From the NCBI GenBank assembly GCA_900128565.1, contig LT635975.1, positions 1 through 29,202 of the forward strand: a stretch of DNA of 29,202 nucleotides, in the 5' to 3' direction. Source of the stretch: Stramenopiles sp. TOSAG23-6. Taxonomy: Eukaryota > Sar. Both the position numbers and the translations under genes were made by a program. Under the pieces are notes generated by a model. It was given only the letters and a program-made list of their open reading frames with translations. It was not told the DNA's origin and made no database searches. This document shows, piece by piece, positions 1 to 29,202 of this stretch. Each line of letters opens with the position of its first letter. Position 1 is the stretch's first letter.

Positions 1-54
1 AGGTACAAAATTTCGTACGAAAAAAAATCGAATTTGAAAAAAAATAAAACGTAC
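1..54 (-). repeat. Introner-like intronic repeat, copy A (partial)
   Basis: Read on the minus strand, the HFM1 exon stops at a GTACGT donor (first base at 54) and runs into GTACGTTTTATTTTTTTTC, an AAATTCG box, a T-run, and the 19-mer TTCGTACGAAATTTTGTAC (plus-strand 3-21). The copy is cut off by the window edge just after the core, so its acceptor is not visible. It differs from copy D at only about two positions over the shared 54 nt, although the two host genes are unrelated. Orientation is sense with respect to the host gene. Confidence 0.85.
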
Positions 55-862
55 AGTCCGCCGATTTTTCTTCCGCGAGAGCTTTCAGCGCACAGATGTA
101 AATAATTTTACCACTATTATTTTTATTACAACCATAAAGTTGAATTTCATTGATTAGTGAAAGTTCAAGTATGACAGTTTTACCAGATCCAGTTGGGGCT
201 CCAACAACAATGTTACTTGTTTTGTAGAAAATTGTCGGGGAAACAATTTGCTGCATTTTATTAAATTCAAAAGGAAAAACAGTACTGAAATTACTGTGAA
301 TGTTTGATCTGATGTCTGTATTATTTGACAATTCATAAGATGTTTGTTGTGTTGTTTGTTTTGTATGAATGTTGGAGACATTTTGTTTATGATATCTATC
401 ATTTTGTTGTATACGAGTATGTTTTTGTTGTGAATGGGTGCAAAGAATATCATCGAAAGAGTTTTGTTCGTTCTGTTTTCTGTTCCTTTTATTACAGATT
501 CTTTTACGAGATTTAGTTGCTTTCGCACGAGCAATGCAAAGTCTCAAAGTAGACCCAGATAATCCGGTCTTTCGCTTTATACGCGGCGGTTTAGTTAAAG
601 GCAAGATTTGCGCACTATCATTGACAGTCTCATCTACTGTATTTATTGAATTCGTCGTCGTTGTGGTTTCTAGGGGAAAGAAGTTGTGGTTTAGTCCGTG
701 ACTCTCAACTTGGGTAATTTCTTCTGTTTCAATCATTGGAAGTTCAGACGACTTTTCCAATCCTGAACAAGTTTCTGTTGAAGTAAGATTCACTTTTGTG
801 AAATTTTCATCCATATGACGCTTTGGTCTAAAACTATTCTTAGCGAATGAAATTCGGGGCAT
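55..862 (-). CDS. HFM1: HFM1/MER3-type meiotic DNA helicase, 5' exon (partial)
   Basis: This is the first exon of a Ski2-family DEAD/DEAH-box helicase: 269 codons plus one base from the ATG at 862-860, ending at the GTACGT donor at 54 (phase 1), with the rest outside the window. Residues 1 to about 195 are polar and low in complexity, with basic clusters. The helicase core then begins with FPFEFNKMQ (Q-motif region), Walker A APTGSGKT at 222-229, and motif Ia region IIYICALKALAEEKSAD. The order of a short disordered N-terminus followed by a single cassette, and the wording around Walker A and Ia, fit HFM1/MER3 better than Brr2 or ASCC3, which have longer N-termini. HFM1/MER3 unwinds recombination intermediates and promotes interfering meiotic crossovers, so its presence implies a sexual cycle (inference). 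The DExH and later motifs are not visible, so a related Ski2 helicase is not fully excluded. Confidence 0.75.
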
Positions 863-1267
863 TTTGAATACAATTGAGTGAGTGCTGATGACTAAAGAGA
901 ATTAGTCCACTGCTATATTATATTTTATTATCAAAGGCCAACAAAAGCCTACCCAATGATTTGATCATCATGTGATGTGATGTGAGTTGACATCAAAATT
1001 TTGTTTTTTTGAAATTTTTTTAATTTTTCGTGTTTATGTTACGAATTTCTTTTATGGAAATCTAAATCAAAGTCGACAAATTGAAATCAGAAATATACGT
1101 TTAAAGTGGCACCACGGTAGGTACCAGGTAGGTGACGTTTAAAACTTGAAAATAAAGATTGCGGACCGACGTTGAACACCCTACCCTAACTTTTATCTAT
1201 TTTGCATGATAATTTGAAAATGTGAATGAAAATATTACAAATATTGAAATTTATTTTTTTTTGTTTT
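863..1267. other. Intergenic region, presumed HFM1 promoter and 3' flank of the next gene
   Basis: No coding signal is visible in these 405 bp. They lie between the HFM1 start (transcribed leftward) and the stop of the neighbouring minus-strand gene. Visible features are AT-rich runs, a GGTAGGT direct repeat flanking a GGTACC site (1116-1133), and a telomere-like CCCTACCCTAAC at 1179-1190. No TATA box can be assigned. Confidence 0.5.
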
Positions 1268-3190
1268 TTACTGTGTATAAATATCCTGCAACTTTTCACA
1301 GAGTTCTAGCAATCTACTCAATTCAGTCTGAGCAACTTTATAATTTTCAACTAATACTAAAGTTTGTAACACCCAATGAAGAGAATGTAAATACTTTTTA
1401 GGCTCTAATGATTCTGTGTCTTTTTTTAAGAGTCTTTGTAAAAAAATATTTTTTAAAAAAGCTTCTTTAGGCATCACTCTCGCCGAAACACCCGCCGAAA
1501 CACCAATCGGAACACCCTTTTCGTGTTTAAGATCAAGACTATCCGGAAGAAGTGAAATTATATGCCCCAAAAGTGACGAGATACATTTGATTAACATACG
1601 TACATTCTGATCAAGCAATCCTTGCAAATCGCCTTCCTTTGCGCTATTTGCGCTCTCTATTATTTTAATCATTTGACTGTTGACTGTTTCTAATTCTAAT
1701 TTAACTTGTTGCATTATTTTTCTAGCTTGCATTATTTTTCTAGCTCGACGGCCACGTTCAACAGCTTGAAGTTTTGTAGCAGCCTGATCTCTTTGTTGTG
1801 CGTCAGCAGCAGCCTTAATTGGTGTTGTTGGTGGCGCAGTTGTTGTTGGTTTTACTTCAGGCAGTGACTGTTGTGGTAGTTCAGGTACTTCTGTTCTTCC
1901 TTCTTCTGTTGCTTCTTCTTTTTCAAGACCACCACCAGCAGCAGCAGCAGCCTCAACATCACTAGCAGCATCAACAGCAGCATCACCTCCTCCTCCAGAA
2001 ACAGCAGCAGCACCTCCTCCTACATCAGACTCATCATCACCAACGTTAGCAGCACCACCACCTGATGCGGCTTTAGTTGGTTTTGTTGGTGATGCGGCTC
2101 CAGTTGCAGCAGAAACAGCAGCAGCATCTCCTCCTCCATCAGAATCATCATCACCACCACCTGGTGCGGCTTTAGTTGGTGGTGCGGCTCCAGCTGCAGC
2201 AGCATCTCCTCCTCCACCAGGATCATTACCATTAGAAGATTGACCACCAACAGTCTCTGGTTGAGCAGTACCTACAGCAGCACCACCACCAGTACCAGTA
2301 CCAGTTCCTATTCTACCACCAGAAGGAACACCATTAGGAGCAGCAGCACCACCATTAATTGGTGTTTTTGGTGGCGCAGTTGGTGCTGGTTCTGGTAGTT
2401 CAGGTAGCGGTAGTTCCGGTAGTGGCCTTTCAGTGGGGTAAAGTTTCAAATCGGAATAACGCAATCGAGTTGTAGACAACATTTTCTCAATAAGTACTAG
2501 AGTTTTAGACAACATATTCTCATTAGAATTAATCTCTGGATACGTAGGACACGTACATCCAGCCACGCATTTCATCCCAAACCAATGGAAACCGTCTTCA
2601 AAACAACCTAAGTATTGAAAACGAACTCGACAACCTTCACACGTAACATTAGTGGCGGCGGAAATTTGTGTTTTAATCCAGGCAACTTCTTTCTGTTCTC
2701 CATTACACTTTACTATTTCACCACCGGCAAGCAATCTCCGACCTCTCACTACAGATTGTACGTCTGTTCGATGTAGCTTATACCATACATTGTAATCTGT
2801 TTGAAAACTCTGACTCGGACCAGGAGAACGACGTTGGTGGAAAAAGGCGAAGAGGCCCATACAGGTAACTAGCCCCACAAATAGAACGGTCGCACAAACC
2901 AAGTGGATTTTAGATGTTTTATCCCATTTTTTCATTGGGCTATAGCTAGACACATTCTTATTACATGATTCCACCTCAGTGTGAGTGATGACAACTTCTG
3001 AGTTGGGGTTGTTGGATGCGTTGTCTTCAGTATTGGCTAATTTAGTGTTTGTCGTTTCAAACCCGTCTTCGAAGTTTGACGAAGCATAATCATTCTTGTT
3101 GCGATCTGTTGACGCTTCCCCAATAATTACAGTATTTTCTTCATTATGATTGAGATCTATTGAACTCGGTTCATCATTCGGGACGCACAT
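1268..3190 (-). CDS. Unknown single-pass membrane protein with Cys-rich segment, Pro/Ala/Gly-rich linker and IQ motif
   Basis: This is 640 aa if translation starts at the first in-frame ATG (3190-3188); the longer open frame begins with GTG, which is not used as a normal eukaryotic start. Residues 1-94 are acidic and polar. A basic stretch precedes one hydrophobic helix, about residues 96-117 (HLVCATVLFVGLVTCMGLFAFF), so it looks like a signal anchor. About 70 residues of Cys-rich sequence follow (CNGEQ, CEGCRVRFQYLGCF, KCVAGCTCP). Then come PELPLPELPEP, a long Ala/Gly/Pro/Asp low-complexity region, and an IQ-like calmodulin-binding motif, KLQAVERGRRARKI (about 465-480), whose tail is doubled by an 18-bp tandem duplication (about 1709-1744). 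The C-terminal 140 residues are predicted helical. No family is recognised. Signal-anchor topology would put the IQ motif outside the cytosol, which is odd; an inverted topology would resolve it. The stop is TAA. Confidence 0.75.
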   Translation of the reverse strand: MCVPNDEPSSIDLNHNEENTVIIGEASTDRNKNDYASSNFEDGFETTNTKLANTEDNASNNPNSEVVITHTEVESCNKNVSSYSPMKKWDKTSKIHLVCATVLFVGLVTCMGLFAFFHQRRSPGPSQSFQTDYNVWYKLHRTDVQSVVRGRRLLAGGEIVKCNGEQKEVAWIKTQISAATNVTCEGCRVRFQYLGCFEDGFHWFGMKCVAGCTCPTYPEINSNENMLSKTLVLIEKMLSTTRLRYSDLKLYPTERPLPELPLPELPEPAPTAPPKTPINGGAAAPNGVPSGGRIGTGTGTGGGAAVGTAQPETVGGQSSNGNDPGGGGDAAAAGAAPPTKAAPGGGDDDSDGGGDAAAVSAATGAASPTKPTKAASGGGAANVGDDESDVGGGAAAVSGGGGDAAVDAASDVEAAAAAGGGLEKEEATEEGRTEVPELPQQSLPEVKPTTTAPPTTPIKAAADAQQRDQAATKLQAVERGRRARKIMQARKIMQQVKLELETVNSQMIKIIESANSAKEGDLQGLLDQNVRMLIKCISSLLGHIISLLPDSLDLKHEKGVPIGVSAGVSARVMPKEAFLKNIFLQRLLKKDTESLEPKKYLHSLHWVLQTLVLVENYKVAQTELSRLLELCEKLQDIYTQ

Positions 3191-3511
3191 GTTTGTACAA
3201 AATGTACACACGAGTGCGCAATTATGTTTACGTCGTGTTGATTCTTACCAAACGGTCACACAGGAAACTGCAAAAATATGTTCAGTGCATTTTACATTTT
3301 TCAGCTATTGTGTTTTTCGTGTTTTTCGTGTTTTTTGTGTTTTTTCCTTGAGTTCTCCACTCTGTAAAAAGTTGACGCAGAGATTCTTCGGAATTCCACA
3401 ACAAGTACATTTCACATTGTATTTGCATTTTACATTACTACAGTAATCGAGATTGATTTGATTCCTCTTTCACAAGAAGAAGGATACACAATTAAATCGC
3501 TTCTTTAAATA
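3191..3511. promoter_or_regulatory. Divergent intergenic promoter region with GTGTTTTTC repeats
   Basis: These 321 bp separate the starts of the minus-strand membrane-protein gene and the plus-strand thioredoxin/hemerythrin gene, so they probably hold both promoters. A short tandem array of GTGTTTTTC-type units, about four copies of 9-10 bp, lies at 3310-3347. A TAA at 3506-3508, in frame just before the ATG at 3512, supports that start. No TATA box is evident. Confidence 0.5.
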
Positions 3512-4804
3512 ATGTCGGATATACCGATTGGCAGTTTTAACTTTGTTAGCCCCTTTCCAAATGTTGCACTGTCATCTAATTCTATGAGACTGTCCAAAGG
3601 AAAGCCAACGGTGCTTCATCTATACACTGGCTGAGGTGGATGCTGGCCTTGCGCTGCACAGATGGACGAGTGGGCTCAGCAGTATGTAGATGCTGTAGAG
3701 TTTGTTTGTGTCAGCTGTGGTGGACCAGGGTTAGCACTAGAAATGGGCCGGGAGATGAAATTGCGACACTGTACCAATGGTTTTATCGCCAGTAAGGAGA
3801 ATATGCCAAAGTGGGGTCAGTTGGGTTGTTCTGGTTTTATTATTTTTGACGATCAGCTGAATGTTGTGACAAGAAAAACTTCAGCTTATCTAGAAGTTCG
3901 AGAGAGAGCATTTGACGATGTACGTAATATAGTTGACGGACTTTTGAAAAATATGAGTTCATCAAAAGCAGAGGTAGCTGAAGATAAGGCAAGAAAAGAG
4001 TATGCACAAAACCACAAGTGCTATGTAGACAACTGGACCGCTTCTTCTTCTGCAAATAAAGCAGTGGAAATACCAAATATTGACACTGCATCCGTAAAAC
4101 AATTGAAATCGTTTATCGTAGCTTCTGGTTTATCGGTGCATGACTGTGTGAACAAGTCTGATTTGCGTGAGCGTGCTCAAATCGCCATGTCTTCGATAGA
4201 AACAACCAACGGGGGTGGTAGCAATGCAGCTGTTGATTCTAGTAGTCTTGATAAAATGAAAGCTTATTCTTTAAAAAAGGTGAAGAGTGTTAATATTTCT
4301 ATACTAGATGAAGAACATCGAATTTGTGAGGATGCCGTTGATCTCCTATTGTCTCAACAAGACAAAAATGCTTTAGAAGCTGTGAAAAAATCATTTACTC
4401 AGCATTTTTCAAATGAAGAAAAACTATTGGACCAATATTTATATGACTCCGTAGTCGATATCGATGCACCTCAAAAAAAAAGGCAAAAGTCGGAAAATAA
4501 TTTGTCAAATGCTTCGTTTAGTGCTTCATCGGGACAACGAAAGTCTCATTTTGCTGATCATCAGAGGATATTGCGTAATATTGATTTACAATTGGAGCAA
4601 GCTGAAAGTGATCTGAAGGCTAGTAAAAAATATCGTGTACCTGCAAAATTTATTGAAGAGTTATTGAATTCATGGAAAGCTCATGAAAAATATGATCAAG
4701 GGTACGCGGAGAAATTATCGAGTGCGATGCAGGGGTGTTCAAGTAATAATGAAAATAGTACAAAAAGTAGTACGAAAAAAATGGGTTGTTCAACAAAGTC
4801 TTGA
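3512..4804 (+). CDS. Candidate selenoprotein: thioredoxin-like + SAP-like + hemerythrin-like protein
   Basis: A single frame from the ATG at 3512 encodes 430 residues to TGA at 4802 (followed by TAG), interrupted only by TGA at codon 41. Sequence on both sides of that TGA forms one thioredoxin-like fold: strand TVLHLYTG (33-40), TGA, GG, then the CWPC active site (44-47), helix AAQMDEWAQQYVD, strand VEFVCVSC, and later LGCSGFIIFD. Starting at the next ATG (3662) would remove the first strand and the CWPC, leaving a headless fold, so read-through as selenocysteine is the better reading. About 191-225 (VKQLKSFIVASGLSVHDCVNKSDLRERA) resemble a SAP/MANF-C-type helical module. About 265-410 resemble hemerythrin: H269, H298xxxE302, H346xxxH350 and H391xxxD395, with a polar insert before the third motif. 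Together these suggest a redox protein with a di-iron (oxygen- or iron-sensing) domain; that role is inference. No convincing SECIS element was found by eye in the 3' flank. A nonsense mutation or sequencing error remains possible. Confidence 0.7.
3632..3634 (+). other. In-frame TGA, candidate selenocysteine codon
   Basis: Codon 41 of the frame that opens at 3512. It sits three residues before the CWPC motif (TGA-G-G-C-W-P-C) in the loop after the first thioredoxin strand, where redox-active Cys or Sec is expected. TGA is a normal stop in other genes here (for example those ending at 12698 and 17093), so wholesale reassignment is unlikely. Confidence 0.6.
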
Positions 4805-5548
4805 TAGATAGTGTAGGGATATTACCGTACAAATTCGAAATTAATTACGTATGAAATTTGCTATGAAATTTGCTATGAAATTACGTATGAAATTTGCTAA
4901 AGGTTCAATTTCGAATTTGCCACATGGTAAATAACCCTCTGAAGTCTGGACGTGTTGGCCATTTCGTTTTTTCCTCATTTTAATGTTGTAAGTATTTGTT
5001 ATGATTGTGTTGTGTATGAGCGTGTAGTGTATTATTTATGATTGTAGTGCATATTATGAGAGAAAGTTGTAGTTGATTGTCTACGGAATGTGAAAAGTAG
5101 GTGATTTCGTGTTACTTTGTTGTAGAAATTTATTGAATTGATGATGAAAATTTTCTGTATTGATGATTTCAGTGCTTCAAATATTATTATATTGCATTGA
5201 AATTTGAACAGTGAAAATTTGAGTTTGTTATAAATGTTATCACTAACGAATGACATTGTGAAGTCATAATAAAAAAATGAATAACACGAAATATTATTTT
5301 TCTCTTCAAAAGGTTAACGTTATTTATAACGGTTGGGTTGGATCTACAAAATCGGTTGAACACTTGATCGAATAAATATACTACTACCTAGTGCTAGTAG
5401 CTATTTACGTATATTTACACATGATCTAATTCTCGTTGTAGGATAGTATATTATCACTAGATCTTGCTCGAACAGATATACACAACGTAACTTTTATGAT
5501 GTTATCGAGTAAATAGTCATATTAATTATAATTTGTCTGGGTTAAATT
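4805..5548. other. Intergenic region, about 740 bp, no gene seen
   Basis: This holds the 3' flank of the candidate selenoprotein gene and the promoter of the gene at 5549. It is AT-rich, with no credible long frame on either strand and no tRNA-like fold recognised. It contains the inverted-repeat element at 4830-4919, a small hairpin CGTTAT-TT-ATAACG near 5318-5331, and an inverted repeat CTACTA...TAGTAG at 5381-5400. If the upstream gene encodes selenocysteine, its SECIS element should lie here; several ATGA quartets are present, but none has a clear paired helix with the apical AA. Confidence 0.55.
4830..4919. repeat. Inverted-repeat element related to the intronic repeats
   Basis: CAAATTCGAAATT (4830-4842) and its exact reverse complement AATTTCGAATTTG (4907-4919) flank a tandem run of TATGAAATTTGC units (about 4850-4898). 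The right arm, extended to CAATTTCGAATTTG (4906-4919), is identical over 14 nt to 28331-28344 inside intron copy C and over 13 nt to 6551-6563 in copy B. The minus-strand reading of the left end, AATTTCGAATTTGTACGGTAA, resembles the core-plus-TAAC part of the intron family. This may be a non-intronic or antisense relative of that family. Confidence 0.55.
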
Positions 5549-7333
5549 ATGTCAAATAATAAAAGTACGAACGCAATCACACCAGACGAAGTTCAATTCA
5601 TTCAACATATGGCACAGGAATTTTCCAGAGAGAACGACGAAAATGTCAAAATCTGGAAAGCTCTTCGGCTTATTTCAAATGAGGAAAAACTACTTCGTAA
5701 AAAGGAACAATTTCACACCACTGAGCAACTACATATGTATCAAAAGACAAGCTCTCCAGTGCAGTATCCAAAAACTCGAAGACAAAACCGTAAAAGCTGT
5801 AAAGTACCAAAAACTCAAAGTAAAAACTGTAGAGTTTCAATGCAACAAAAAGTTCCACAACCAGGTGCTAAAAATAGTGGTCATTCTAGAGTTACTATAC
5901 GAAATGCAATGTACAGACCAAATAGACGATCGAAACAAAAAGATAAGAAAATCTCATCAAAAACTATAATTTATTCTAACTTTTCTAGAACGCCCCGGTT
6001 TGAATGGCAGAAATATAATCAGCCAAAACAAAATAGTATTCCAGTATTAAGTCATATTGACATGCATAAAAAATACAAACCGACCCCTGGACCTGGTGAT
6101 TACAATGTTGCCACAGAATTTTCTCCGAATAGATTACCAAAGCCAGTTGAAAAGATCAATCATCGTCAATCTCAACAGCTATTCTCTACATCTAATACAT
6201 CTAATTCTCAACTTACTTTACAAGCTGTAGCCCAGGAAGAAAAGAAACAAAACGATTTAAGTGATACATCAATATTTTCTAATGATAAGTATTCCCGACA
6301 GACTCAAAATGAAATTGATTCTTCAATCAACGCAAAAAATGTAAAAGCATTTGCTGAAAATAGTATTGTAGGGAATGCGCTTCGAATATGGAAGAGTCAA
6401 AATTGGCTAGATAAAGACAAATATCCCCATACGGGTAAATGGATTTTAGTACCCACTGAAGGTTTATTAAAGGATGTTTCTTCTAGTGTACAGAAAAATG
6501 AGGCTGATGAAGTGATACCACTTGTCGATAATGTATGTTTAATTTTTTTTCAATTTCGAATTTATTTTTCGTACGAAATTTTGTACCTAACAAATTTTAG
6601 TGTTTTTTTTTGGAAATATTTTTCCAAAATATATACGAGCTTGGAAGAAGGTTCATCGAAAGATGACACTGTAATTTTTATGGAGAAAAAAATGGAAGAA
6701 TCACAGAAAGAAGTTTCATCGCTGAAGATGGAGATAGAAAAATTAAGACAAATTTCTGCTACAGCAATGAAAACTTCATCAGAAAGTGTCTCAAATTTAT
6801 CAGAAGAGCGCAAATCTTTAGAAAATCGATGTCAAGAGTTAGAAAAGGAATCAGAAAATCAACAAGATCAAATCATAAAATTGAAATCATTTGAAGGTAT
6901 TGTTGAGGAATTGAAAGAAACTATCAAGGTTAAGCAAAATCAGCTTGATAAGCGCGCCGTGGAACAACAGAAGCTTGAAAATTATGTGAAGCAAGCTTTA
7001 GGACATGCCAACAATACTGTTAAACAGAGTCAAATGAAGTACAAAAATTCGTTGCGAATGTTAAAACAACAATTAGAATCAAAACAGAAGGAAATCGAAT
7101 ATTTTTCTACCACTTTGGATAAAGTCAAAATTTCACACAAGCGCGAGGAAAGAATGATTATGTCAGTGATATACAAGCTTGGCATGCAGATGAACAATGA
7201 TATATTACATCGAAGTCCGGCATCAGGCGCTGGGCCAATGAATACTCCAACGCCCAACTCTGCTGTACCTGGGTCAGCGAAAAAACCAACATCATGGCTT
7301 GGTCAAAAAAGAATAGCGCAACGTGTTGGTTGA
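5549..7333 (+). CDS. PGPGxY (sperm-tail PG-rich) coiled-coil protein with an intron-like insert
   Basis: The open frame runs 594 codons from the ATG at 5549 to TGA at 7331-7333 if the insert is read through; the spliced protein would be about 560 residues. The N-terminal third is basic and polar (many KTxSKNC and RRQNRKSCK-type runs). A single STPGR/PG-rich motif, YKPTPGPGDYNV (about 176-187), is the type found in ODF3/SHIPPO and other axonemal proteins. After the intron-like copy B (from 6533, between codons 328 and 329), a long coiled coil follows (EKKMEESQKEVSSLKMEIEKLRQ onward, about 375-540), then a Pro/Ser tail ending KPTSWLGQKRIAQRVG. Both sides of the insert are in the same frame, so the insert must be a multiple of 3 nt or the frame is lost. 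The stretch read from the insert (VCLIFFQFRIYFSYEILYL) is hydrophobic and unlike its surroundings, which argues it is not protein. The likely role is a flagellar or cytoskeletal structural component; this is an inference from one motif. Confidence 0.7.
   Translation: MSNNKSTNAITPDEVQFIQHMAQEFSRENDENVKIWKALRLISNEEKLLRKKEQFHTTEQLHMYQKTSSPVQYPKTRRQNRKSCKVPKTQSKNCRVSMQQKVPQPGAKNSGHSRVTIRNAMYRPNRRSKQKDKKISSKTIIYSNFSRTPRFEWQKYNQPKQNSIPVLSHIDMHKKYKPTPGPGDYNVATEFSPNRLPKPVEKINHRQSQQLFSTSNTSNSQLTLQAVAQEEKKQNDLSDTSIFSNDKYSRQTQNEIDSSINAKNVKAFAENSIVGNALRIWKSQNWLDKDKYPHTGKWILVPTEGLLKDVSSSVQKNEADEVIPLVDNVCLIFFQFRIYFSYEILYLTNFSVFFWKYFSKIYTSLEEGSSKDDTVIFMEKKMEESQKEVSSLKMEIEKLRQISATAMKTSSESVSNLSEERKSLENRCQELEKESENQQDQIIKLKSFEGIVEELKETIKVKQNQLDKRAVEQQKLENYVKQALGHANNTVKQSQMKYKNSLRMLKQQLESKQKEIEYFSTTLDKVKISHKREERMIMSVIYKLGMQMNNDILHRSPASGAGPMNTPTPNSAVPGSAKKPTSWLGQKRIAQRVG
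6533..6637 (+). repeat. Introner-like intronic repeat, copy B
   Basis: Donor GTATGT at 6533, then TTAATTTTTTTT, CAATTTCGAATTT, and the 19-mer core TTCGTACGAAATTTTGTAC at 6568-6586. CTAAC, a good branch-point match, is at 6587-6591, and TTTTAG ends at 6600. A hairpin TTGGAAA/TTTCCAA and ATATATAC follow (to about 6636). The end is uncertain: AG at 6600 gives a textbook 68-nt intron but breaks the frame, while 6634 or 6637 keep the frame but lack AG. The element is in the sense direction of the host. Confidence 0.75.
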
Positions 7334-7341
7334 TAATTGAA

Positions 7342-7413
7342 ATTACATTATAGAACTAATACGACAACAATGAAGTGATTACATTATAGAACTAATACGA
7401 CAACAATGAAGTG
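7342..7413. repeat. 36-bp perfect tandem duplication
   Basis: Two identical 36-nt copies (7342-7377 and 7378-7413), beginning ATTACATTATAGAACTAATA, lie in the 3' flank of the plus-strand coiled-coil gene. The 225-bp convergent gap that contains them holds no gene. The identity suggests a recent slippage or unequal-exchange event. Confidence 0.9.
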
Positions 7414-7558
7414 ATACTATTTACATGAGACATCACACCTCTTCTTTGACAGGATAGTTTACAAAAATTCAATTAAACACTACAATATCAAATATATTTT
7501 GTTTATAGTACTAAGCGAAAATCCTTTACTAATATATCAGAAAAGTACAATAGTTTTA

Positions 7559-9124: not shown

Positions 9125-9365
9125 AATAACTAATAATATATATGGGGTGAGGTCATTCGGGAGAGACTATTAATGGCCACTGGTGGTGACGCGCGTGCCG
9201 ACTCTTTCTAAAAACACGAAATATCTTCAGAATTCTTTTCATTTCGCGAATTCAAACAATTCAAATTTAAATTCATTTTTCCATTTTTCATTATCTTTCC
9301 TACGTGAAACGAATTTAAATTTTAAATTGTTATTCTTCTCATATTATTTGTAGTCTGTTATACAG
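9125..9365. promoter_or_regulatory. Divergent promoter region
   Basis: These 241 bp lie between the starts of the DNAJC7-like gene (minus) and the gene at 9366 (plus). A GC-richer patch (GGTGACGCGCGTGCCGAC, about 9184-9201) lies near the DNAJC7 side in otherwise AT-rich sequence, and an ATATATAT string lies at about 9135-9142. Shared bidirectional control is inferred from the geometry only. Confidence 0.5.
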
Positions 9366-12698: not shown

Positions 12699-12841
12699 AC
12701 AGATGATGTTAAAAGAACCCTCTATTTTAAAAAATATTGTTGCACGATTACTTTTTTATTTTAGATATAAATAAGCTTTTTATAATATACGAGAAACTTT
12801 ATATGTGTATTTTAAATCAATTCAATCAGCACTAACACTTT

Positions 12842-15217
12842 TTAAAATCTCCTTCTTCGTCTTCTTCGTTTTTTTTTTCGCCTCTTTTTTTTTGCCTTGC
12901 GTTTAGCTTTTCTCTTGGTCTTCCTTGCTTTTCGTTTCTGCTTTCGGTACGTCTTCTTGGCTTTTTTGCGTTCTTTTTTTGCTGCTTTCTTCTTTCTCTT
13001 CTTCGTCTTCTTCGCCGCTTTCTTGTCTGATTTTCTCTTTCTACGATCATCCTTTTTCTGCTTGCGCAATTTTTTTCTCGCTGCTTTTCTCTCAGACTTT
13101 GGAAGCTTTCGGATCGCCTTCCTTTTCCCTTTCCTGGCTTTCCGAGCTGACTTTTTCTCTTTGCGTATATTTTTCTTGGCAGCTTTGTAATCTCTTTTTG
13201 CCTGACGTTTAGCCCGTCTTTTCTTCTTCTTTGACGCCTTTTTCTTTTTGCGTATATCTTTCTTGGCTTTTTTGAAATCTTTCCGTGCTTTGCGTTTCTC
13301 TCTCCTCTTCGTCTTCTTCGATGCTCGATTTTCCTTTCTCCTCTTTTTTTTAGATGCTCTATATACTTTTTTTGCTTTACGCTTATCTTTTCTCTTCTTC
13401 TTCTTCGATGCTCGTTTCTCTTTTCGTCTTTTTTTCTTGGATTTTTTGTAATCTTTTTTTGCCTTTCGTTTATCTTGCCTTTTCTTCTTCTTAGATGCTC
13501 TTTTATCTTTGCGCCTTTTCTTCTTAGATGCTCTATAATCTTTTTTTGCCTGACGTTTATCTCGCTTTTTCTTTTTCCTTGCTGCTTTTTTGTCTGCTTT
13601 TCTTTGTTTGCGATCATTCTTTTTCTGCTGGCGCAATTGTTTTCTTGCTGCTTTTCTCTCAGACTTTGGAAGCTTTCGGATTTCCTTTCTTCTATTCTTT
13701 CTGGCTTTACGATCTGCCTTTTTCTTCCCCCGTAACTCTTTCTTTTTATTTTTGTAATCTCTTTTTGCCTGACGTTTAGCCTGTCTTTTCTTCTTCTTAG
13801 ATGCTCTTTTATCTTTGCGCCTTTTCTTCTTAGATGCTCTATAATCTTTTTTTGCCTGACGTTTATCCTGTCTTTTCTTCTTCTTAGATGCTCGTTTATC
13901 CTTTCTCCTCTTTCTCTTGGATTTTCTGTAAGCTTTTTTTGCCTGACGTTTATCGTATCTCTTCTTCTTCCTGGGGTTTCGATTTATCCTTTCCATTCGT
14001 TTATCCTTTCTCCTCTTTCTCCTTGCAGCGCGTCTCTGCTTGCGTTTCTCCGACTTGGACATCACTTTATTTACACCTTGTTTGACCAAAGCCTTTCCCC
14101 TTTTCACACCTTGTTTGACCAAACCCCCCAAACCCACCAAACCCCCCAAACCCATTGCTTGTTTTACACCAGATGAATCCTTGTTTTTATTATCCTCGTC
14201 ACCCCAATCATCATCATCATCATCATCGTCGTCGTCGTCCCAGCTATCGTCTTCATCGTCTTCAGCTTTAGCTTCCTTAGCTTCAGATTTCGCTTCCTCG
14301 GCTTCAGATTTCGCTTCCTCAGCTTCAGATTTCGCTTCCTCGGCTTCAGCTTTCGCTTCCTCGGCTTCAGCTTTCGCTTCGTCAGCTTTGACTTTTGCTT
14401 CCTCAGCATCTTCTTTCTGTTTAGCTTCAGCTTCATCAGCATCTTCTTTCTGTTTAGCTTTAGCTTTATCAGCATCTTCTTTCTGTTTAGCTTCAGCTTT
14501 ATCAGCATCTTCTTTCTGTTTAGCTTTAGCTTTATCCGCATCTTCTTTCTGTTTAGCTTTAGCTTTATCCGCATCTTCTTTCTGCTTAGCTTTTGCTTCC
14601 TCGGCTTCTTCTTTCTGTTTAGCTTTAGCTTCTTCGGCTTCTTCTTTCTGTTTAGCTTTAGCTTCTTCGGCTTCTTCTTTCTCTACAGCCTTCTCTAAAG
14701 CTTCTTCTTCTTTTTTTGCTTTTTCTGCTTCTTCCTCCTTTTTCTTTTGAGCTTCTTCCGCTTGTTCCTCATTCCTCTTTGTTTTTATTTCTTCTTCTTT
14801 TTTCTCGGTTTCTGTTGAGCTCGCGCTTTCACTAGTTTTTGAAGTTGAGGGACCGAGAAAGCACTTTTTACAGTCGTCACCGTCTTTCATTTTTTTAATG
14901 CAGTCGCAGTCAATCTTTCCAAGGTCGTCGACAGAGAAGAAAACACCTTCACCAAACGATGGAAAGACTCCAAAACTCTCTGTTGTATGATGAGTCGCTT
15001 TATCCTCGTATGCATCACATCCATTAATCATTTGTTTTCTAGTAGGTGTGGTGTCGAAAGGAACTAACTTTTTCTCCTTTCCTTTGCCGATTAACGTAAA
15101 CAATTGAATCCGCCTCTTTCGTCTCTTTCGAGACTCACGTTGGACTTTACTATCTGCATGAAATATCCTACTGAGCAATAATATTATTATCAGCTTGGCT
15201 GGTATAAAGCCCCACAT
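12842..15217 (-). CDS. Secreted two-block polyampholyte: signal peptide, acidic repeats, poly-Asp, very basic Lys/Arg repeats
   Basis: 791 aa from the ATG at 15217-15215; the codon before it is GTG. A hydrophobic leader (MWGFIPAKLIIILLLSRIFHADS, about 1-23) looks like a signal peptide. A small Cys-containing region follows (C67, CDC at 104-106, C116xxC119). Residues 135-320 are acidic helical repeats (EEAEEAKAKQK, DADKAKAKQKE). About 321-345 are nearly pure Asp (DDDSWDDDDDD...WGDED). A short GLGGLVGLGGLV hinge leads into residues 388-791, an extremely basic region of units such as KKDYRASKKKRRKDKRASKKKKRQ, with two longer units containing LPKSERKAARK. The basic half carries long DNA duplications. 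No family is recognised. A secreted polycation/polyanion of this kind could organise a mineral, wall, mucilage or extrusome matrix, by analogy with silica- or carbonate-associated proteins; this is inference. A nuclear basic protein is the alternative if the leader is not a signal. Confidence 0.75.
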   Translation of the reverse strand: MWGFIPAKLIIILLLSRIFHADSKVQRESRKRRKRRIQLFTLIGKGKEKKLVPFDTTPTRKQMINGCDAYEDKATHHTTESFGVFPSFGEGVFFSVDDLGKIDCDCIKKMKDGDDCKKCFLGPSTSKTSESASSTETEKKEEEIKTKRNEEQAEEAQKKKEEEAEKAKKEEEALEKAVEKEEAEEAKAKQKEEAEEAKAKQKEEAEEAKAKQKEDADKAKAKQKEDADKAKAKQKEDADKAEAKQKEDADKAKAKQKEDADEAEAKQKEDAEEAKVKADEAKAEAEEAKAEAEEAKSEAEEAKSEAEEAKSEAKEAKAEDDEDDSWDDDDDDDDDDDWGDEDNKNKDSSGVKQAMGLGGLVGLGGLVKQGVKRGKALVKQGVNKVMSKSEKRKQRRAARRKRRKDKRMERINRNPRKKKRYDKRQAKKAYRKSKRKRRKDKRASKKKKRQDKRQAKKDYRASKKKRRKDKRASKKKKRQAKRQAKRDYKNKKKELRGKKKADRKARKNRRKEIRKLPKSERKAARKQLRQQKKNDRKQRKADKKAARKKKKRDKRQAKKDYRASKKKRRKDKRASKKKKRQDKRKAKKDYKKSKKKRRKEKRASKKKKRKDKRKAKKVYRASKKKRRKENRASKKTKRREKRKARKDFKKAKKDIRKKKKASKKKKRRAKRQAKRDYKAAKKNIRKEKKSARKARKGKRKAIRKLPKSERKAARKKLRKQKKDDRRKRKSDKKAAKKTKKRKKKAAKKERKKAKKTYRKQKRKARKTKRKAKRKAKKKRRKKKRRRRRRRF
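13479..13867 (-). repeat. Long exact duplication inside the basic block
   Basis: The 83-nt stretch 13479-13561 is repeated exactly at 13785-13867, 306 nt (102 codons) away. A second pair (13081-13114 and 13648-13681, 567 nt apart) encodes the two RKLPKSERKAARK units. Both spacings are multiples of three, so the basic block grew by in-frame duplication, and the 83-nt identity points to recent exchange. Confidence 0.85.
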
Positions 15218-15407
15218 CACTATTCTTGGCTATAACCAATAAGAAGAATGGGTGAATTTGAACGTGGGCATAGAAAAGTATGTTGAACAGTCTGTGTTCG
15301 TTCTTCTTTCACCAAGTCAAAATTCAAATTTGAAATTTGAAAAATTTCAAAAAACTTCGTCGCGAAATGAATTTGCAATTTATTTTTAAATATTAATACG
15401 AATTTTG

Positions 15408-16827: not shown

Positions 16828-17092
16828 ATACTAGACTAATAAACGATAGCTATTTGAACCGAGTCACAATATTGTGCAATACTAAATTACTCATAAAAGT
16901 GTCACGTCGATTTGATTGAGAGACATGCGTCGCTGGCGCCGGCCAACCGAAACCGAACTTCGAAAAGGCCCCTAACCCTACATAGTATAATAACAAATAT
17001 AGCAAATTGAAATTGAAAAGACCAGAGTCAATTTCAAATTATTATTCAATCAAACACTCATCACTTAAAAAACTGATAAAACTGATATTGTA
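16828..17092. promoter_or_regulatory. Promoter region of the CobW-type GTPase with GC-rich island and telomere-like box
   Basis: 265 bp lie between the stop of the 17093-21286 gene and the start of the GTPase, both on the minus strand. A GC-rich patch at 16928-16970 (TCGCTGGCGCCGGCCAACCG) stands out from its AT-rich surroundings and ends in CCCCTAACCCTAC (16969-16981). An inverted pair AATTGAAATTGA / TCAATTTCAAATT lies at about 17004-17040. Its position just upstream of the start suggests a core promoter. Confidence 0.45.
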
Positions 17093-21286: not shown

Positions 21287-21531
21287 CTCACGTGCGTTTC
21301 CCTTTTACGAAAAGATCGAATATTCAAACTTTAGATACTTCTAGTAGTAGGTAAGTAACTGCTGTTGACTGGTGACTAGGCAGACTGACTGGAACAATTT
21401 TTTGTTTCGATTTGTTTTTTTTGTGAACAAAAAACAGTTTCACTTTTGCCGTTTCAACCGTTTTGAAGTGAGGACATTTTACGTAGATAGTCATTATTTC
21501 TATTGTATTATTGTCAAATACTGTAGACAGA
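21287..21531. promoter_or_regulatory. Divergent promoter region
   Basis: These 245 bp lie between the EF-hand/IQ gene (minus) and the kelch-MORN gene (plus). There is a CTGACTGG-type repeat near 21371-21391 and a T-rich run at 21401-21423. No clear TATA box is seen. Bidirectional activity is inferred from the layout. Confidence 0.45.
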
Positions 21532-24216: not shown

Positions 24217-24255
24217 AATTTACTCTACTATATGTAATCCTTTTAGCAAAGTTAT

Positions 24256-27099
24256 TTATTTATGAATTGATTGTTTTGATATCAATGTTTTTTCGAGCAA
24301 AGAAACGATTTCTTCATTTTCATCGTGTTTTGCAATCTCCAATGCTGAATCTATGGCATCTATCTTTACAATACTGCCATACGACAAAAGTAATTGCACA
24401 ACTGACAGCTGCCCTCCACTAACTGCGCTATTTAATGCTGTCACACCATCAGCGTCTGCTGCATTTAGGATACTATCCCCCGTGAGAGTCAGTACTTCTT
24501 TGATAGCTTCTATATCTCCATTGGAGCATGCACGTCTGAGATTATTTCCATGAATTTTCCACTGTTGTCGCTCAGAATCAAGAATCCTTGTTTCCTCTGC
24601 ATTTTGTTTTTTCAAAACTGAACGATTTATAATATATTGGTGTCGTGATAAAAGTGACAAATCCTCAGTTGGATGATTTTCATTTTGCTGTCTTTCCTTT
24701 TCTGTTGCTTCTTCAGCGATAGTGATAAGCTGCATTACCTGGGAATCTACAGGCCCTGTTACTAAATCCCTTGGTTTTAAACCTGCTTTTGTCCGGGAAA
24801 AGCAGTTTGCACCCTGTTCTAGCAGAATTGCGACAACAGTGGAATGCCCGCTGAAGCATGCGAGATGTAATGGTGTACGATGACTAGCGTCTATTACATC
24901 AATGTCTGTTAAACGTAAAAGGGGAGCCGATGGAAAAGCTGCTCTTGGGACAGCTAATAAGGCTACAATTTCTGCGTGTCCTTTATATGCTGCATGGTGT
25001 AAAGGTGTCCAGCCAATTTCTGGACCACCTTTAGCCTTACATTTAGGATCTGCACCTTGTTCAACCAAAAATTTGGCAACAACAATATTTCCTTCTCTAC
25101 ATGCAAAATGAAGTGCTGTTTCACCAAGTCTACTTTGATCATTTACATGAATATGGGAGCTATTTAGTAATTCCTTTACTTGATCTAAACTTCCAGTGCC
25201 ACATACATGTCTAAACTTTCTTTGTTTCGATTCTTTTCTAAGCTGAACATCTTCCGTTTCGACGAGAATGCCCTTCACCTCAGGTGTTGATGCTAACTGT
25301 AGTGGTGTCATACCACCAGAATCAGTTGAATCTAATAGAAAAGGTATGATACTAGTAAATCCTCTATTCAAATTAGTATTATATCGCATTACCTCTCCGT
25401 TTTCTGCATCGCGTGCTTCGATGTTTGCACCACTATGCAAAAGAAAACGTACAGTCTTAGCGTGGCCTCCGAGACTGGCATGATGTAAAGGTGTACGCTT
25501 CATCGCATCGCAATAATGCACATGTGCACCCTTGGCAATAAGCATTTCTACAGCTTCCGTATGACCCATCGCCGATGCTAACAGCAGTAGTTCATTCATC
25601 TCATGTATTGTACTTTGTGCACTTATAATACTTTCTATTGTACCTCCAAAAGAAGTATGAGGGTATTCTTCGTTTCGATGATTCTTGAATCGATCAATAT
25701 GTTTTGCCGCTCTTGATATCCTTGTTTGAGTTAGTGCTGCATTCGAACCTCTAGCTATTGTTGATTGCCTAGAATATTCTAAAGGTGTGCGGCCCCTCAT
25801 ATCCCGTGCTTCAGTATCTGCCCCTGCTTTTATTAATGCTTGTGTGGCATGTAAGTGCCCCTTTGCAGCCGTAAAATGTAATGCTGTTCTACCTGTACTA
25901 AATACACGGGAATTGACAACAGCACCACGAGCGATAAGTGAATTAATTTGAGATGTATTTCCTATTTGTGCGGCATGGCGCAACTTCTCCTCAAGCCAAC
26001 CTTCCTTCCTAGCAATCGATTTACGGTGTCGGTTATCAATGGATGTATATGGACGACGAACTTTTGTTTTTTTCCATCCTGTTGAGGATTGTTTAGATAT
26101 TGGCCGCGATATATCAACTGTCCTCAACGATCCCCGTGATGACTGTCGAGAAGGTTGTCTGGATTGTGCTTTCGTTAATTCTGAAGACTTTTCCAATGTG
26201 TTATTTTCGAGACTTTTTGTTGATCGTATTGCAGTGCCTGCGTTTGCAGCTTCTTTCATTCTCTTTCGACGCAAACGACTAGCTTCAACTCTCCAAGGCT
26301 TGCGGAACCCAGCAATCTTCTTTGCTTGGATTTCAGTGTCAACTTCAAGTTTTTTCTTTTTTAACTTTTGTTTTTCTCTTTTACTTTTTCTTAATACCAT
26401 TAATGCTTCCTGCCCATACTCTATTGCCTTTTTTTGCATGTGCATTCTTTCACTTATAGTAGTTGGAGTATATGGTCTATTTTTGCTTTTCACAGTTTCA
26501 TAGAGGTTTATATGCATATATTTTGGATATTCAGCAATTGGAAAACTGAATGGTTCTTTTAACCATTTAATTTTACTTGTACTTTTATTTTCCCTAACCC
26601 TAATTTTACTTGTACTTTTATTTTGATCATATTGGGTTGAGCTGTTTCTGCTTCTTGATGTAAATGGTCTCACATTACCTGATAAAAACTCTGTTTGAAA
26701 TGAATATGAACCATTGCCTTTTGGAGATTTATTTTGTTGTACGTTTTGATTACTGCATAGACGTTGTTTCATGGCACCATATTTTTTTGATGACCTCGCT
26801 GAGGCATTCGCAGAGTTTGGTCTATTACTTGATGCAGCGAGTCTATGAGGAACACTTTTTTTATAACCAACTTTATTTCTTTTTGTTTTTGTATTGATCT
26901 TTGTTTTATTTGAAGTATTATGTTTCTTTGAGAGATCCCCCCCGAATCGATTATTACGTATGCGAACGACTTCTTTATCTCTAAGAGCTAATTGTCCTAG
27001 GCGCTGGTTAAGAACTCGACGGCCAAGTTCGTTTTTTTTATATATTTTGATCAACTTTTTTTCACTCCAGTCATCGTAATGAACATTTTCATTCTGCAT
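24256..27099 (-). CDS. Ankyrin-repeat protein with basic N-terminal region
   Basis: 947 aa from the ATG at 27099 to TAA at 24256. Residues 1 to about 365 are basic and mostly disordered, with Ser/Arg-rich parts (RQPSRQSSRGSLRT) and one helical segment (RMHMQKKAIEYGQEALMVLRKSKREKQKLKKKK). From about 368 to 770 there are roughly nine ankyrin repeats (TALHFTAAKGHLHATQALIKAGAD, TPLHHASLGGHAKTVRFLLHSGAN, TALHFACREGNIVVAKFLVEQGAD, TPLHLACFSGHSTVVAILLEQGAN), interrupted by a linker around 540-600. Two to three more repeats lie near the C-terminus (VTALNSAVSGGQLSVVQLLLSYGS). An 11-residue unit ENKSTSKIRVR is duplicated in the N-terminal region by a 33-bp tandem repeat (26569-26624). It acts as a protein-binding scaffold; the partner is unknown. 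It is divergent from the P5A ATPase gene. Confidence 0.9.
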   Translation of the reverse strand: MQNENVHYDDWSEKKLIKIYKKNELGRRVLNQRLGQLALRDKEVVRIRNNRFGGDLSKKHNTSNKTKINTKTKRNKVGYKKSVPHRLAASSNRPNSANASARSSKKYGAMKQRLCSNQNVQQNKSPKGNGSYSFQTEFLSGNVRPFTSRSRNSSTQYDQNKSTSKIRVRENKSTSKIKWLKEPFSFPIAEYPKYMHINLYETVKSKNRPYTPTTISERMHMQKKAIEYGQEALMVLRKSKREKQKLKKKKLEVDTEIQAKKIAGFRKPWRVEASRLRRKRMKEAANAGTAIRSTKSLENNTLEKSSELTKAQSRQPSRQSSRGSLRTVDISRPISKQSSTGWKKTKVRRPYTSIDNRHRKSIARKEGWLEEKLRHAAQIGNTSQINSLIARGAVVNSRVFSTGRTALHFTAAKGHLHATQALIKAGADTEARDMRGRTPLEYSRQSTIARGSNAALTQTRISRAAKHIDRFKNHRNEEYPHTSFGGTIESIISAQSTIHEMNELLLLASAMGHTEAVEMLIAKGAHVHYCDAMKRTPLHHASLGGHAKTVRFLLHSGANIEARDAENGEVMRYNTNLNRGFTSIIPFLLDSTDSGGMTPLQLASTPEVKGILVETEDVQLRKESKQRKFRHVCGTGSLDQVKELLNSSHIHVNDQSRLGETALHFACREGNIVVAKFLVEQGADPKCKAKGGPEIGWTPLHHAAYKGHAEIVALLAVPRAAFPSAPLLRLTDIDVIDASHRTPLHLACFSGHSTVVAILLEQGANCFSRTKAGLKPRDLVTGPVDSQVMQLITIAEEATEKERQQNENHPTEDLSLLSRHQYIINRSVLKKQNAEETRILDSERQQWKIHGNNLRRACSNGDIEAIKEVLTLTGDSILNAADADGVTALNSAVSGGQLSVVQLLLSYGSIVKIDAIDSALEIAKHDENEEIVSLLEKTLISKQSIHK
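26569..26624 (-). repeat. 33-bp imperfect tandem repeat with telomere-like CCCTAACCCTAA
   Basis: AATTTTACTTGTACTTTTAT plus TTT is repeated with a 33-nt period (26569-26601, then 26602-26624). The linker contains CCCTAACCCTAA (26592-26603). It is in frame (11 codons) inside the ankyrin gene. Confidence 0.85.
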
Positions 27100-27359
27100 T
27101 TCAGATTATATTATCGTAATTGCATCGTCTATGCTATGTCCATATGATATGTTTTTTTTTCAGTATTTATCTTGTCAACTATGGAAAACTATTCGCAGAT
27201 GAAACTGTCAGTCATGACTGATATTTTTTTACGAGGAGGAACAAACCTGCATTTCTTAGCGCGGCCAAAAGACGACGACGAGCGAGGTGACCGAGGTCCA
27301 TTGGCCAACTCGAGCGCAATTCTTTCATTTGTGTAATAGAGTAATCTGTAGTGAACAAA
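27100..27359. promoter_or_regulatory. Divergent promoter region
   Basis: These 260 bp lie between the ankyrin gene (minus) and the P5A ATPase gene (plus). A GC-richer patch, GCGGCCAAAAGACGACGACG (27261-27280), and a CCATTGG box (27298-27304, a possible CCAAT-type site on either strand) lie upstream of the ATPase start. Assignment as a promoter is by position. Confidence 0.45.
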
Positions 27360-29138
27360 ATGGTGATGGACCTACAGCACCCGCGAGCCTTAGTCCGTGT
27401 GACTGGGCACAAGCGAGCGGAAGGTCGTTACTACTTTGCATATGCGCTCTTAGCATTACTGTACTCGGTGATTTTGTACAATTGTTACATGACTGCTGGC
27501 CAGCCATACGCGAGAGCACTTGCTGAAGGTATGGATTTAGCAGTGAAAAAGGGAACTGCACCGCCCCCTATTGACTTCCATTCAAAGGCAGTTGGTGATT
27601 TGGCTAAACGGATGGGTGGTGCTCGATCATCGCCTAAGTTTGAATTTGATATTGGGAATGATGACTGGGGTGAAGAAGATTCTGATGAAGTCGAGAAAGT
27701 GGAAGAAACTGTATCAGATGGCAAAGTTGTAGATAACACAGAAGACACTGAAGATATAGATGATGATGATGATGATGATGATACGAGGTCATTGCCTTCA
27801 AAGTATTTGCCTGATGTCATTCCATCGATATGTTTGTTCCTTCTGTTAACTTTGACTGCTTTATTTCCATTATTATGTCATTGGTCTGTGGATTTCAAAG
27901 CACGTATGTTATTTTCAAACGCGACTGATATCTCCAGTGCTACACATCTATTAGTTCGACCTCATATGCATCGCGGAAAAGCATCACTTGAAAAAATATT
28001 TCGATCAAAATGCAATGGAAAACTTGGTTTTGAATTTCAAAGACAAAAATATATTTATTTATCCGCAGATGAGTTGAAGGCTCATCACAGAAGTCAAGTA
28101 GAATCGAAAGAAGAAAAGATTTCGAGTTCTTCTGATGGCATCGATGAAAATCCAAATGAAATTATAGGAAATGGTGCAGAAAATGGAGCAGTCCAACTCG
28201 TTCAGTGTGTCTGTAATGCGCCTCTTTCGTATTATGTAGATTCGGGTGGTATAGTTGGTAAAGACGTATGTTTTTTTCACCTCATTTTTTTTTTTCGTAC
28301 GAAATTTTGTACGTAACAATTATTTTTAAACAATTTCGAATTTGGTATATTTTTTCACAATACATGCTGTCAATAACGCAGAAGAAAAATTTGGTTTAAA
28401 TCGAATGTCCATTACAATGCCATCATTCTTGGAATTATACCGTAATCAACTTCTCGCGCCTCTTTGTATTTTTCAATTTTTTGTCGCTTTTTTATGGCTT
28501 TTGGATGAATATTGGCAATATACTTTATTTAGTATATTTTCTATTTTTATGCTTGAAAGTACTACGACATTTCAACGTCGTCGGACAATGCAGACTCTTG
28601 CAGGTATGGCACAGAAGCCTTATCCAATCCAAGTATTTCGTCATAATATATGGAGTGAGATGACAACAGCTGAGCTACTTCCAGGTGATTTAATTTCAAT
28701 TCGGGCAAAGATAAAAGAAAAAGTTCCAAAACCAATGGAGTTAATGAATCCAAAGGAAAAAGAAGAAGAATTAAAACGTCGCAAGGAAATTATGAAGCGT
28801 CGTAAGGAACAGGCCATTCGTGCTGGTGGTGTTGTTGGAGTACATTCCGATATTATACCATGTGATTGCGTTTTGATTAGTGGTAATGCAGTTGTGAATG
28901 AATCTTCTCTTACTGGAGAAAGTGTACCTCAAATGAAAGATGCGCTTCAATGCCGATCTGACTCAGATGCAAAGAGAAATCTCGCCCCTGATGGTCGTGA
29001 TCGAGTACATATCCTCTTTGCTGGCACATCATTGATTACAGCATCGCCAGGTAAAGTTGTTAGTAATGGTAAGAATACAAAAAAGACACCAATTATAACA
29101 CCACCAGACGGGGGGTCTCTTTGTTATGTAATGCGCAC
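27360..29138 (+). CDS. ATP13A1: P5A-type transport ATPase (ATP13A1/Spf1-like), 5' part, with introner-type introns
   Basis: Translation starts at the ATG at 27360 (the codons before it begin with GTG). Exon 1 runs to 28265 (302 codons, phase 0). It holds a first membrane helix (YYFAYALLALLYSVILYNCY), a lumenal-type acidic run of eight Asp, a second hydrophobic segment (VIPSICLFLLLTLTALFPLLCHWSVDF) and FEFQRQKYIYLSADEL, all typical of P5A ATPases. After intron copy C, exon 2 continues with AEEKFGLNRM, membrane helix APLCIFQFFVAFLWLLDEYW, PGDLISI, a charged insert rich in Lys/Glu (about 28700-28820), PCDCVLISGNAVVNESSLTGESVPQMKD (A-domain TGES at 28912-28923) and RVHILFAGTSLI. It ends at VMRT, where copy D begins (29139). 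The phosphorylation DKTGT site lies beyond the window. P5A ATPases sit in the ER and extract mis-inserted transmembrane helices. Intron C's exact acceptor is unresolved. Confidence 0.92.
28266..28365 (+). repeat. Introner-like intronic repeat, copy C
   Basis: GTATGTTTTTTTC at 28266, the 19-mer core TTCGTACGAAATTTTGTAC at 28294-28312, then GTAAC (28313-28317). After this comes a second family motif, CAATTTCGAATTTG (28331-28344), that matches copy B's 5' half and the 3'-flank element at 4906. Read-through meets TAA at 28315, so it must be removed. The first downstream AG (28380-28381) does not keep frame with donor 28266, but would with an alternative donor GTAAAG at 28258. Homology suggests the exon resumes near 28366 (AVNNAEEKFG), so the end given is approximate. 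Confidence 0.75.
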
Positions 29139-29202
29139 GTATGTTTTATTTTTTTTCAAATTCGTTTTTTTTTCGTACGAAATTTTGTACCTAACGATTT
29201 TT
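29139..29202 (+). repeat. Introner-like intronic repeat, copy D (partial)
   Basis: GTATGTTTTATTTTTTTTC, an AAATTCG box, a T-run, the 19-mer core at 29172-29190, CTAAC at 29191-29195, then the window ends. It interrupts the ATPase after CGC AC (phase 2). It is nearly identical to copy A at the other end of the window, 29 kb away in a different gene. Confidence 0.88.

Follow-up and report, generated by a model that had tools for sequence, protein, structure and literature searches.

Introner-like elements with a 2-bp direct repeat and a predicted non-AG acceptor in a stramenopile genome

Introners are families of similar introns found in many different genes, described from aquatic protists, where they are accompanied by target-site duplications, usually leave mRNA length unchanged and sometimes take a splice site from the target duplication itself (PMC9860276). 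Such a duplication is present in part of the known introner families, with lengths of 3–9 bp cited for earlier cases (PMC9860276), as against 2 bp in the elements described here. These elements were found in a 29,202-nucleotide stretch of DNA from Stramenopiles sp. TOSAG23-6 (assembly GCA_900128565.1, contig LT635975.1), hereafter the window, which carries four copies of a single repeat family, designated A to D. An initial annotation had placed them among the introner-like elements, and a single family spread over many different genes, flanked by a 2-bp direct repeat and leaving host proteins restored upon removal, bears out that placement; two features had, however, escaped the annotation, namely the direct repeat of 2 bp and a 3′ end other than AG. 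The family fits the introner class of PMC9860276 except for its acceptor.

The element family and its 2-bp direct repeat

The family is recognised by a 19-mer core, TTCGTACGAAATTTTGTAC, that has exactly four matches in the window where none is expected (100 shuffles), just as first annotated; two further sites resemble it with three mismatches. When re-measured, the donor-to-core spacing of 28–35 nt and the CTAAC or GTAAC that follows the core in the three copies long enough were again found. A profile built from 34 copies, the window's own copy at 6533 among them, retrieves exactly the four elements (E 2.7e-19, 3.3e-12, 2.9e-11 and 9.3e-10; next 0.033). The window is an entire contig (C25), both ends of which fall inside an element, and the edge at which copy A had been reported to be truncated is thus a contig end; copy D is cut in the same way.

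A genome-wide count, suggested by the initial annotation, gives 559 exact 19-mers in the whole assembly (8.03 Mb, 408 contigs), a figure that includes assembly duplicates (C13/C14 and an inverted duplicate within C2), and a reversed-pattern control in the same assembly gives none. C13 and C14 hold the same copies offset by 2 bases, whilst one end of C2 is an inverted repeat of the other (44 of 49 sampled 200-nt segments; L009 versus L011). Whole-genome amplification of single cells can cause near-duplicate contigs and inverted duplicates of this kind, and copy counts are inflated by them. Contigs beginning inside an element (for example C8, C11, C15, C25 and C47, and also C18, C19, C21 and C37) are as expected if near-identical repeats break an assembly apart. 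Elsewhere in the assembly, near position 2334 of L026 (C49), there is a GC-rich stretch in an otherwise AT-rich genome, possibly transferred or contaminating DNA.

The 559 matches divide into 286 forward and 273 reverse. Equal occurrence on both strands had been named at the outset as grounds for abandoning the introner assignment, but it is orientation relative to genes that counts, and by that measure the claim that all copies are in the sense direction holds beyond the window wherever coding flanks could be called. Coding flanks were called by codon score on both strands, with 18 hits too near an edge and 14 duplicates set aside: among 126 elements, 58 are sense, none antisense and 68 undecided.

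Element anatomy was read from 20 regions chosen for holding copies (a biased sample), together with L001 and the window, in which there are 93 distinct cores at no more than three mismatches, 50 of them exact; both ends are recognisable in 44. The layout is XX-GTAYGTTTTATTTTTTTTCAAWTTCGAATTT..TTCGTACGAAATTTTGTAC-CTAAC...TTTTTTGAAATATTTTTCCAAAATAC-XX or, in shorthand, XX-GTAYGTTTT...TTTTGTACCTAAC...TTTTTYCAMAATAC-XX, XX being the directly repeated dinucleotide, and most elements measure 86–115 nt with the last dinucleotide counted. In an alignment of 34 full copies, similarity reaches near both predicted splice boundaries, with the core and ends far better conserved than the spacers, which vary in length and sequence; the joined proteins of the host genes are of many kinds. 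Left and right dinucleotides are equal in 34 of the 44 copies (28 AT, two GT and one each of TT, CT, AG and GG).

A sharper test comes from copies in which the right dinucleotide is unusual. All 29 exact 3′ ends with a base other than A next to them were listed and 20 fetched; removal of three truncated copies and of L056, which duplicates L051, left 16 distinct evaluable copies. Ten of these have equal dinucleotides (TT six, CT three, GT one), one of the CT matches, L059, having been read by eye with donor GTATGC, where about 1.08 matches would be expected by chance from the left frequencies (Poisson tail 2e-7). Left and right dinucleotides therefore co-vary in the manner of an insertion with duplication, and the repeat is best read as a target-site duplication, nearly always NT. 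In 38 reconstructed empty sites, some of which are tandem paralogues (L020), the base before AT is C in 16, T in 12, A in nine and G in one, and the base after it G in 19, T in 10, A in eight and C in one, a roughly palindromic pattern. An older-looking related subfamily starts GTAYGTTTTCATCATGAATTTCAAATTT and also shows equal dinucleotides (L021, TT/TT). Of 53 predicted folds, 19 have the element ends paired, where mononucleotide shuffles give 5.0; the pairing may be left over from terminal inverted repeats or may help to bring the ends together.

At about 2057–2890 of L020, parts of an exon are repeated in tandem with three diverged introner-like introns in between, which have apparently been duplicated with them.

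Predicted splice boundaries and restored reading frames

Genome-wide, the dinucleotide after AAATATTTTTCCAAAATAC is AT in 515 cases, AC in 15, AG in 12 and AA in nine, and in 29 it begins with a base other than A; with AG at just 12 of 580 exact 3′ ends, the acceptor is not that of a canonical GT-AG intron. When GT...ATAC plus one XX is taken out, the reading frame stays intact in 29 of the 36 copies that could be framed with confidence (P about 8e-9), and the intron lengths modulo 3 are mixed. Where the acceptor starts with a base other than A and the coding frame is decisive, L049, L053, L057, L061, L062 and L068 keep the frame and L066 loses it.

Protein comparisons point the same way. After exact removal, six junctions are free of gaps and insertions in five PDB alignments: those of tRNA pseudouridine synthase 3 (PUS3), insulin-degrading enzyme (insulysin), a FANCJ/XPD-like helicase, a CaM kinase interrupted twice, by introners with acceptors GT and AT, and a JmjC protein (acceptor TT). 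Introners are present even in basic genes such as that for ATP synthase beta, where the joined SWDKFDQQKRSKWTG meets NWDKFDQQKRSKWTG in the uninterrupted relative P0121 (603 amino acids, encoded on a JGI contig of 1984 bases). P0121 and P0002 are continuous through the introner sites, although, as only proteins were compared, either may derive from cDNA or from a spliced model. A Pfam search with four joined proteins put names to three genes, its output containing no junction alignments. For one host protein with WD repeats, human Prp4 is among the PDB matches, covering residues 1–145 of the query, the printed alignment being to another chain; this host may be the splicing factor Prp4.

Three cut registers are compatible with a 2-bp repeat: GT...NT, the same shifted one nucleotide earlier, and NT...AC. 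We prefer GT...NT because GTAYGT looks like an ordinary donor, and on this reading the introns would be GT...NT with an acceptor other than AG. When the two sides were compared for the copy kept in the mRNA, AT was found in 26 of 39 left and 29 of 40 right dinucleotides, which favours neither side.

The splicing signals were tabulated in a pattern-selected set of 53–54 rows (three introns are held twice, with alternative 3′ ends; a later set has 51). GTAYGT is the donor in 45 of 54 of these selected rows. The branch motif, at a median of 37 nt (30–58) before the element end, is CTAAC in 48 of 53 rows, CTAAT in four and GTAAC in one, and the preference for CTAAC is not by construction. Between branch motif and last dinucleotide there is no AG in 36 of the 53 rows and some in 17. 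A GT donor with a CTAAC-like branch site is what is seen in canonical U2-type introns. U12-type introns have the donor consensus RTATCCTT and branch consensus TTCCTTAAC, from which the consensus of the first 26 nt and the branch region of the elements both differ, and a U12-type (AT-AC) assignment was rejected.

Which of these parts matter for removal is suggested by 27 frame-restoring copies without an exact core. In these, the commonest letters of TTCGTACG occur at 100, 67, 52, 41, 81, 78, 48 and 44% and GTAC before CTAAC at 93, 96, 89 and 81%: the palindromic part decays whilst AAATTTTGTACCTAAC and the 3′ motif persist. The idea that splicing needs the palindromic core was rejected, the core being poorly kept in these copies.

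Ordinary GT-AG introns seem rare in the sampled regions. One of ordinary appearance was found by eye in an FKBP-like gene (L028, 398–497; GTAAGT...CTAAC...ACAG), and the beginning of the ATP synthase beta gene holds a further candidate (L013, 1520–1771), also picked out by eye. A scan of the fetched regions for GTRAGN...YAG introns gave six candidates against five and four in two controls, no excess. The initial statement that the remaining window genes lack introns stands as far as the profile search goes, which finds only the four introners there, but draws no support from a scan without power above its controls. That every intron seen belongs to one repeat family agrees with the profile inside the window; elsewhere in the genome there is the ordinary-looking intron of the FKBP-like gene.

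A proposed mechanism and its alternatives

Taken together, these results make it probable that the elements are introners resembling miniature inverted-repeat transposable elements (MITEs), removed by a U2-type spliceosome with a tolerance for acceptors other than AG. A short, non-autonomous, DNA-transposon-like unit would insert in an exon at a Y|AT|R-like site with duplication of 2 bp, mostly AT, and act at once as a spliceosomal intron. It would bring its own 5′ splice site, GTAYGT, and extended branch site, AAATTTTGTACCTAAC, and its end, TTTTTYCAMAATAC, together with one copy of the target dinucleotide, would form the 3′ splice site. The host spliceosome would cut at the GT and two nucleotides past ATAC; with the acceptor so composed, the uninterrupted gene would therefore be restored exactly and the intron would end in NT rather than AG. 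How the acceptor is chosen is a separate matter. The spliceosome may set it by the element-borne TTTTTYCAMAATAC downstream of the extended branch site, cutting two nucleotides beyond whichever these are (AT, TT, CT, GT or GG), a proposal for and against which we see the odds as even. If true, any YATR-like site could receive an introner and the new intron could be removed straight away, AG being needed in neither target nor element, a case of a spliceosome adapted to its own transposon. The copy number, the 2-bp repeat, the sense bias, the conserved donor and branch motifs and the restoration of frames and conserved proteins are observed; removal from RNA, the part played by the U2-type spliceosome and movement by a transposase are inferred.

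Several observations weigh against this explanation. Nine of the 44 copies with both ends have unequal dinucleotides, a tenth being a faulty end call, as do six of the 16 non-A copies: L049, L057 and L062 (AT/TT), L061 (TT/TG), L066 (AT/GT) and L055, in which the donor is changed. Seven of the 36 framed copies shift the frame, five by one and two by two. At the copy C junction of the P5A-type ATPase gene in the window, two of six relatives (P0126 and P0142) align straight through, gap-free, and four are one residue shorter within three residues of the junction. Terminal inverted repeats are found in part of the known introner families; here the repeat, judged by eye, amounts to GTAT/ATAC (about 4 bp) with imperfect inner matches, and is short and imperfect; a search for a DDE_Tnp_4 transposase gave no matches and no candidates in the partial assembly. 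The search behind the 53–54 rows required a donor and a branch-like motif, the presence of which is thus by construction, and a search for U1, U2 and U6 gave no matches but its controls were silent too.

Inverted ends (GTAT.../...ATAC) that can pair, as proposed for the nonconventional introns of euglenids and diplonemids, raise the prospect of RNA removal without a spliceosome. The excess of end pairing over shuffles would suit it, as would a final dinucleotide that is free, as in structure-defined introns. Yet diverged copies keep both the GTAYGT donor and the CTAAC branch, CTAAC recurs in an ordinary GT-AG intron of the same genome, and the inverted repeat is about 4 bp plus scattered matches, with the ends unpaired in 34 of 53 folds; we think it unlikely. 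Removal might instead take place at the level of DNA, the elements being internal eliminated sequences of the ciliate kind of which one short-repeat copy stays behind. Two-bp direct repeats, precise restoration and short inverted ends would all be expected of these, but DNA elimination needs no orientation, which is difficult to square with an exclusively sense tally wherever flanks were called, nor would it call for splicing-type motifs at fitting distances. We know of no ciliate-type DNA elimination in stramenopiles, and regard this as extremely improbable.

That the introns are ordinary after all, with an AG inside or downstream of the element, is what the public gene models have: neither P0001 nor P0124 makes use of the element ends, and 17 of the 53 rows do offer an AG between branch motif and last dinucleotide. 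The other 36 do not, however, both models damage conserved domains, and it is exact removal of the element that closes the six PDB-aligned junctions without gaps, so that this possibility, too, seems scarcely tenable. Lastly, the copies could be ancient, immobile introns kept alike by unusually long splicing signals. Conservation of core and ends much above that of the spacers is as such signals would produce, as is retention of the branch region and 3′ end in diverged copies; against this stand the co-variation of left and right dinucleotides, equal in ten of the 16 non-A copies where about 1.08 are expected, and the contig breaks at elements (C8, C11, C15, C25 and C47) of the kind that near-identical repeats cause. 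It strikes us as very unlikely. Mobile introners spliced at a non-AG acceptor thus remain our preferred explanation.

Host genes, gene models and known systems

The four window copies and their host genes are listed in Table 1. Copy C, with AC on the left and AT on the right, has no intact 2-bp repeat. Also in the window, at 12842–15220 on the minus strand, is a long open reading frame (ORF) with an extremely high content of repeats made up of lysine, arginine, alanine and glutamate.

Table 1. Introner copies in the window and the flanking parts of their host genes
Feature	Position	Strand	Details or basis
Copy A, 5′ part only, cut by contig end	1–54	-	donor GTACGT at 54; core 3–21; left dinucleotide CT
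Exon before copy A; ORF, putative helicase (initial annotation)	55–862	-	ORF list
Copy B host gene, first exon part, ORF start to donor	5549–6532	+	ORF and joined protein
Copy B, left copy of 2-bp direct repeat AT	6531–6532	+	end comparison
Copy B, complete	6533–6634	+	donor GTATGT 6533; core 6568–6586; CTAAC 6587–6591
Copy B, 3′ end AAAATAT plus AT	right repeat 6633–6634	+	end comparison
Copy B host gene, second exon part	6635–7333	+	ORF and joined protein
P5A-type ATPase gene, first exon part	27366–28265	+	start ATG as in P0124
Copy C, complete	28266–28365	+	donor GTATGT 28266; core 28294–28312; GTAAC 28313–28317
Copy C, 3′ end CACAATAC plus AT; left dinucleotide AC	ends at 28365	+	end comparison
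P5A-type ATPase gene, second exon part	28366–29138	+	ORF, profile, relatives' alignment
Copy D, 5′ part only, cut by contig end	29139–29202	+	donor GTATGT 29139; core 29172–29190; CTAAC 29191–29195; left dinucleotide AC

The best match of the joined insulysin protein (L012) is P0001 (EukProt label GSMAST32.ASY1.ANO1.2100.1; 86%), and by eye the aligned exons look letter-identical; P0001 probably comes from the same species. Its label and PMC5778133, in which MAST-3A and MAST-3F assemblies are described, point to a single-cell assembly of a marine stramenopile (MAST), probably MAST-3. At the introner, P0001 reads VCPPV-FFLKYFSTIHAIS-SAGS in place of VCPPVEKHWKTKPMRYLSHLIGHESAGS: the element end is translated and a conserved insulysin block is lost. 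In P0124, encoded by window positions 27366–29202, a stretch preceding copy C to which other P5A ATPases can be aligned is missing, and copy D is read as protein. The public models of the two introner genes compared are thus wrong at the elements. Their annotation combined transcripts, proteins and ab initio models (PMC5778133), and forced GT-AG ends are the likely cause of the errors.

Our searches of the literature (main texts of open-licence papers) turned up nothing on introners or on introns with non-AG ends in MAST-3, nor any description of the present family. The word intron is absent from the main texts of PMC12614181 and PMC8163842 and occurs twice, in the methods, in that of PMC5778133; MAST is not mentioned in the main text of PMC9860276. 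Spread to viruses was considered and rejected, the 24-mer of core plus CTAAC having no matches in IMG/VR, although records near the source genome were possibly excluded; a lone IMG/VR match of the 3′-end 21-mer (L069) has no donor or branch motif around it. Spread to bacteria or archaea was likewise rejected, with no matches in bacterial and archaeal genomes, subject to the same possible exclusion.

Genome annotation usually assumes GT-AG. The survey of PMC9860276 started from annotated introns and used GY/AG core nucleotides in its test for target-site duplications, whereas the acceptor here is not AG; because of this, and because the public models compared are wrong at the elements, non-AG introner families may be overlooked in the genomes of other plankton. 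Should RNA data bear out the removal proposed here, transposon-made introns can take their acceptor dinucleotide from the target site and need not end in AG. The mutual adaptation of spliceosomes and introners could then be studied directly, with a bearing on the origin of new introns and on the recognition of intron ends in splicing.

As to the source of mobility, ISL2EU transposons of the PHIS superfamily also make a 2-bp AT target duplication, but their target is A|AT|T (PMC4482050), unlike the Y|AT|R-like site of the present family. The nonconventional introns of euglenids and diplonemids share non-GT-AG ends, a proposed MITE origin and ends that can pair, but there both ends vary and pair extensively (PMC12621601), whereas donor and branch are fixed here. 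The nearest cases with non-AG ends are found in Amoebophrya and in the larvacean Fritillaria borealis. Amoebophrya introners are introns present in many copies that carry both direct and inverted repeats and depart from GT-AG at their ends, but their splice sites vary widely, their direct repeats are 3–5 nt and their inverted repeats 8–20 nt (PMC7789003); the present family has a fixed GTAYGT donor, a 2-nt repeat and a very short inverted repeat. In Fritillaria, spliceosomal introns end in AT or AC, with YAY preceding the 5′ splice site and again closing the intron, resembling YAT|GT...CAT| here, but this is an animal and its main classes start with AG (PMC13326754), in contrast to the GT donor and single-family copies of the present elements, which would form a parallel to the larvacean and Amoebophrya introns in an unrelated lineage.

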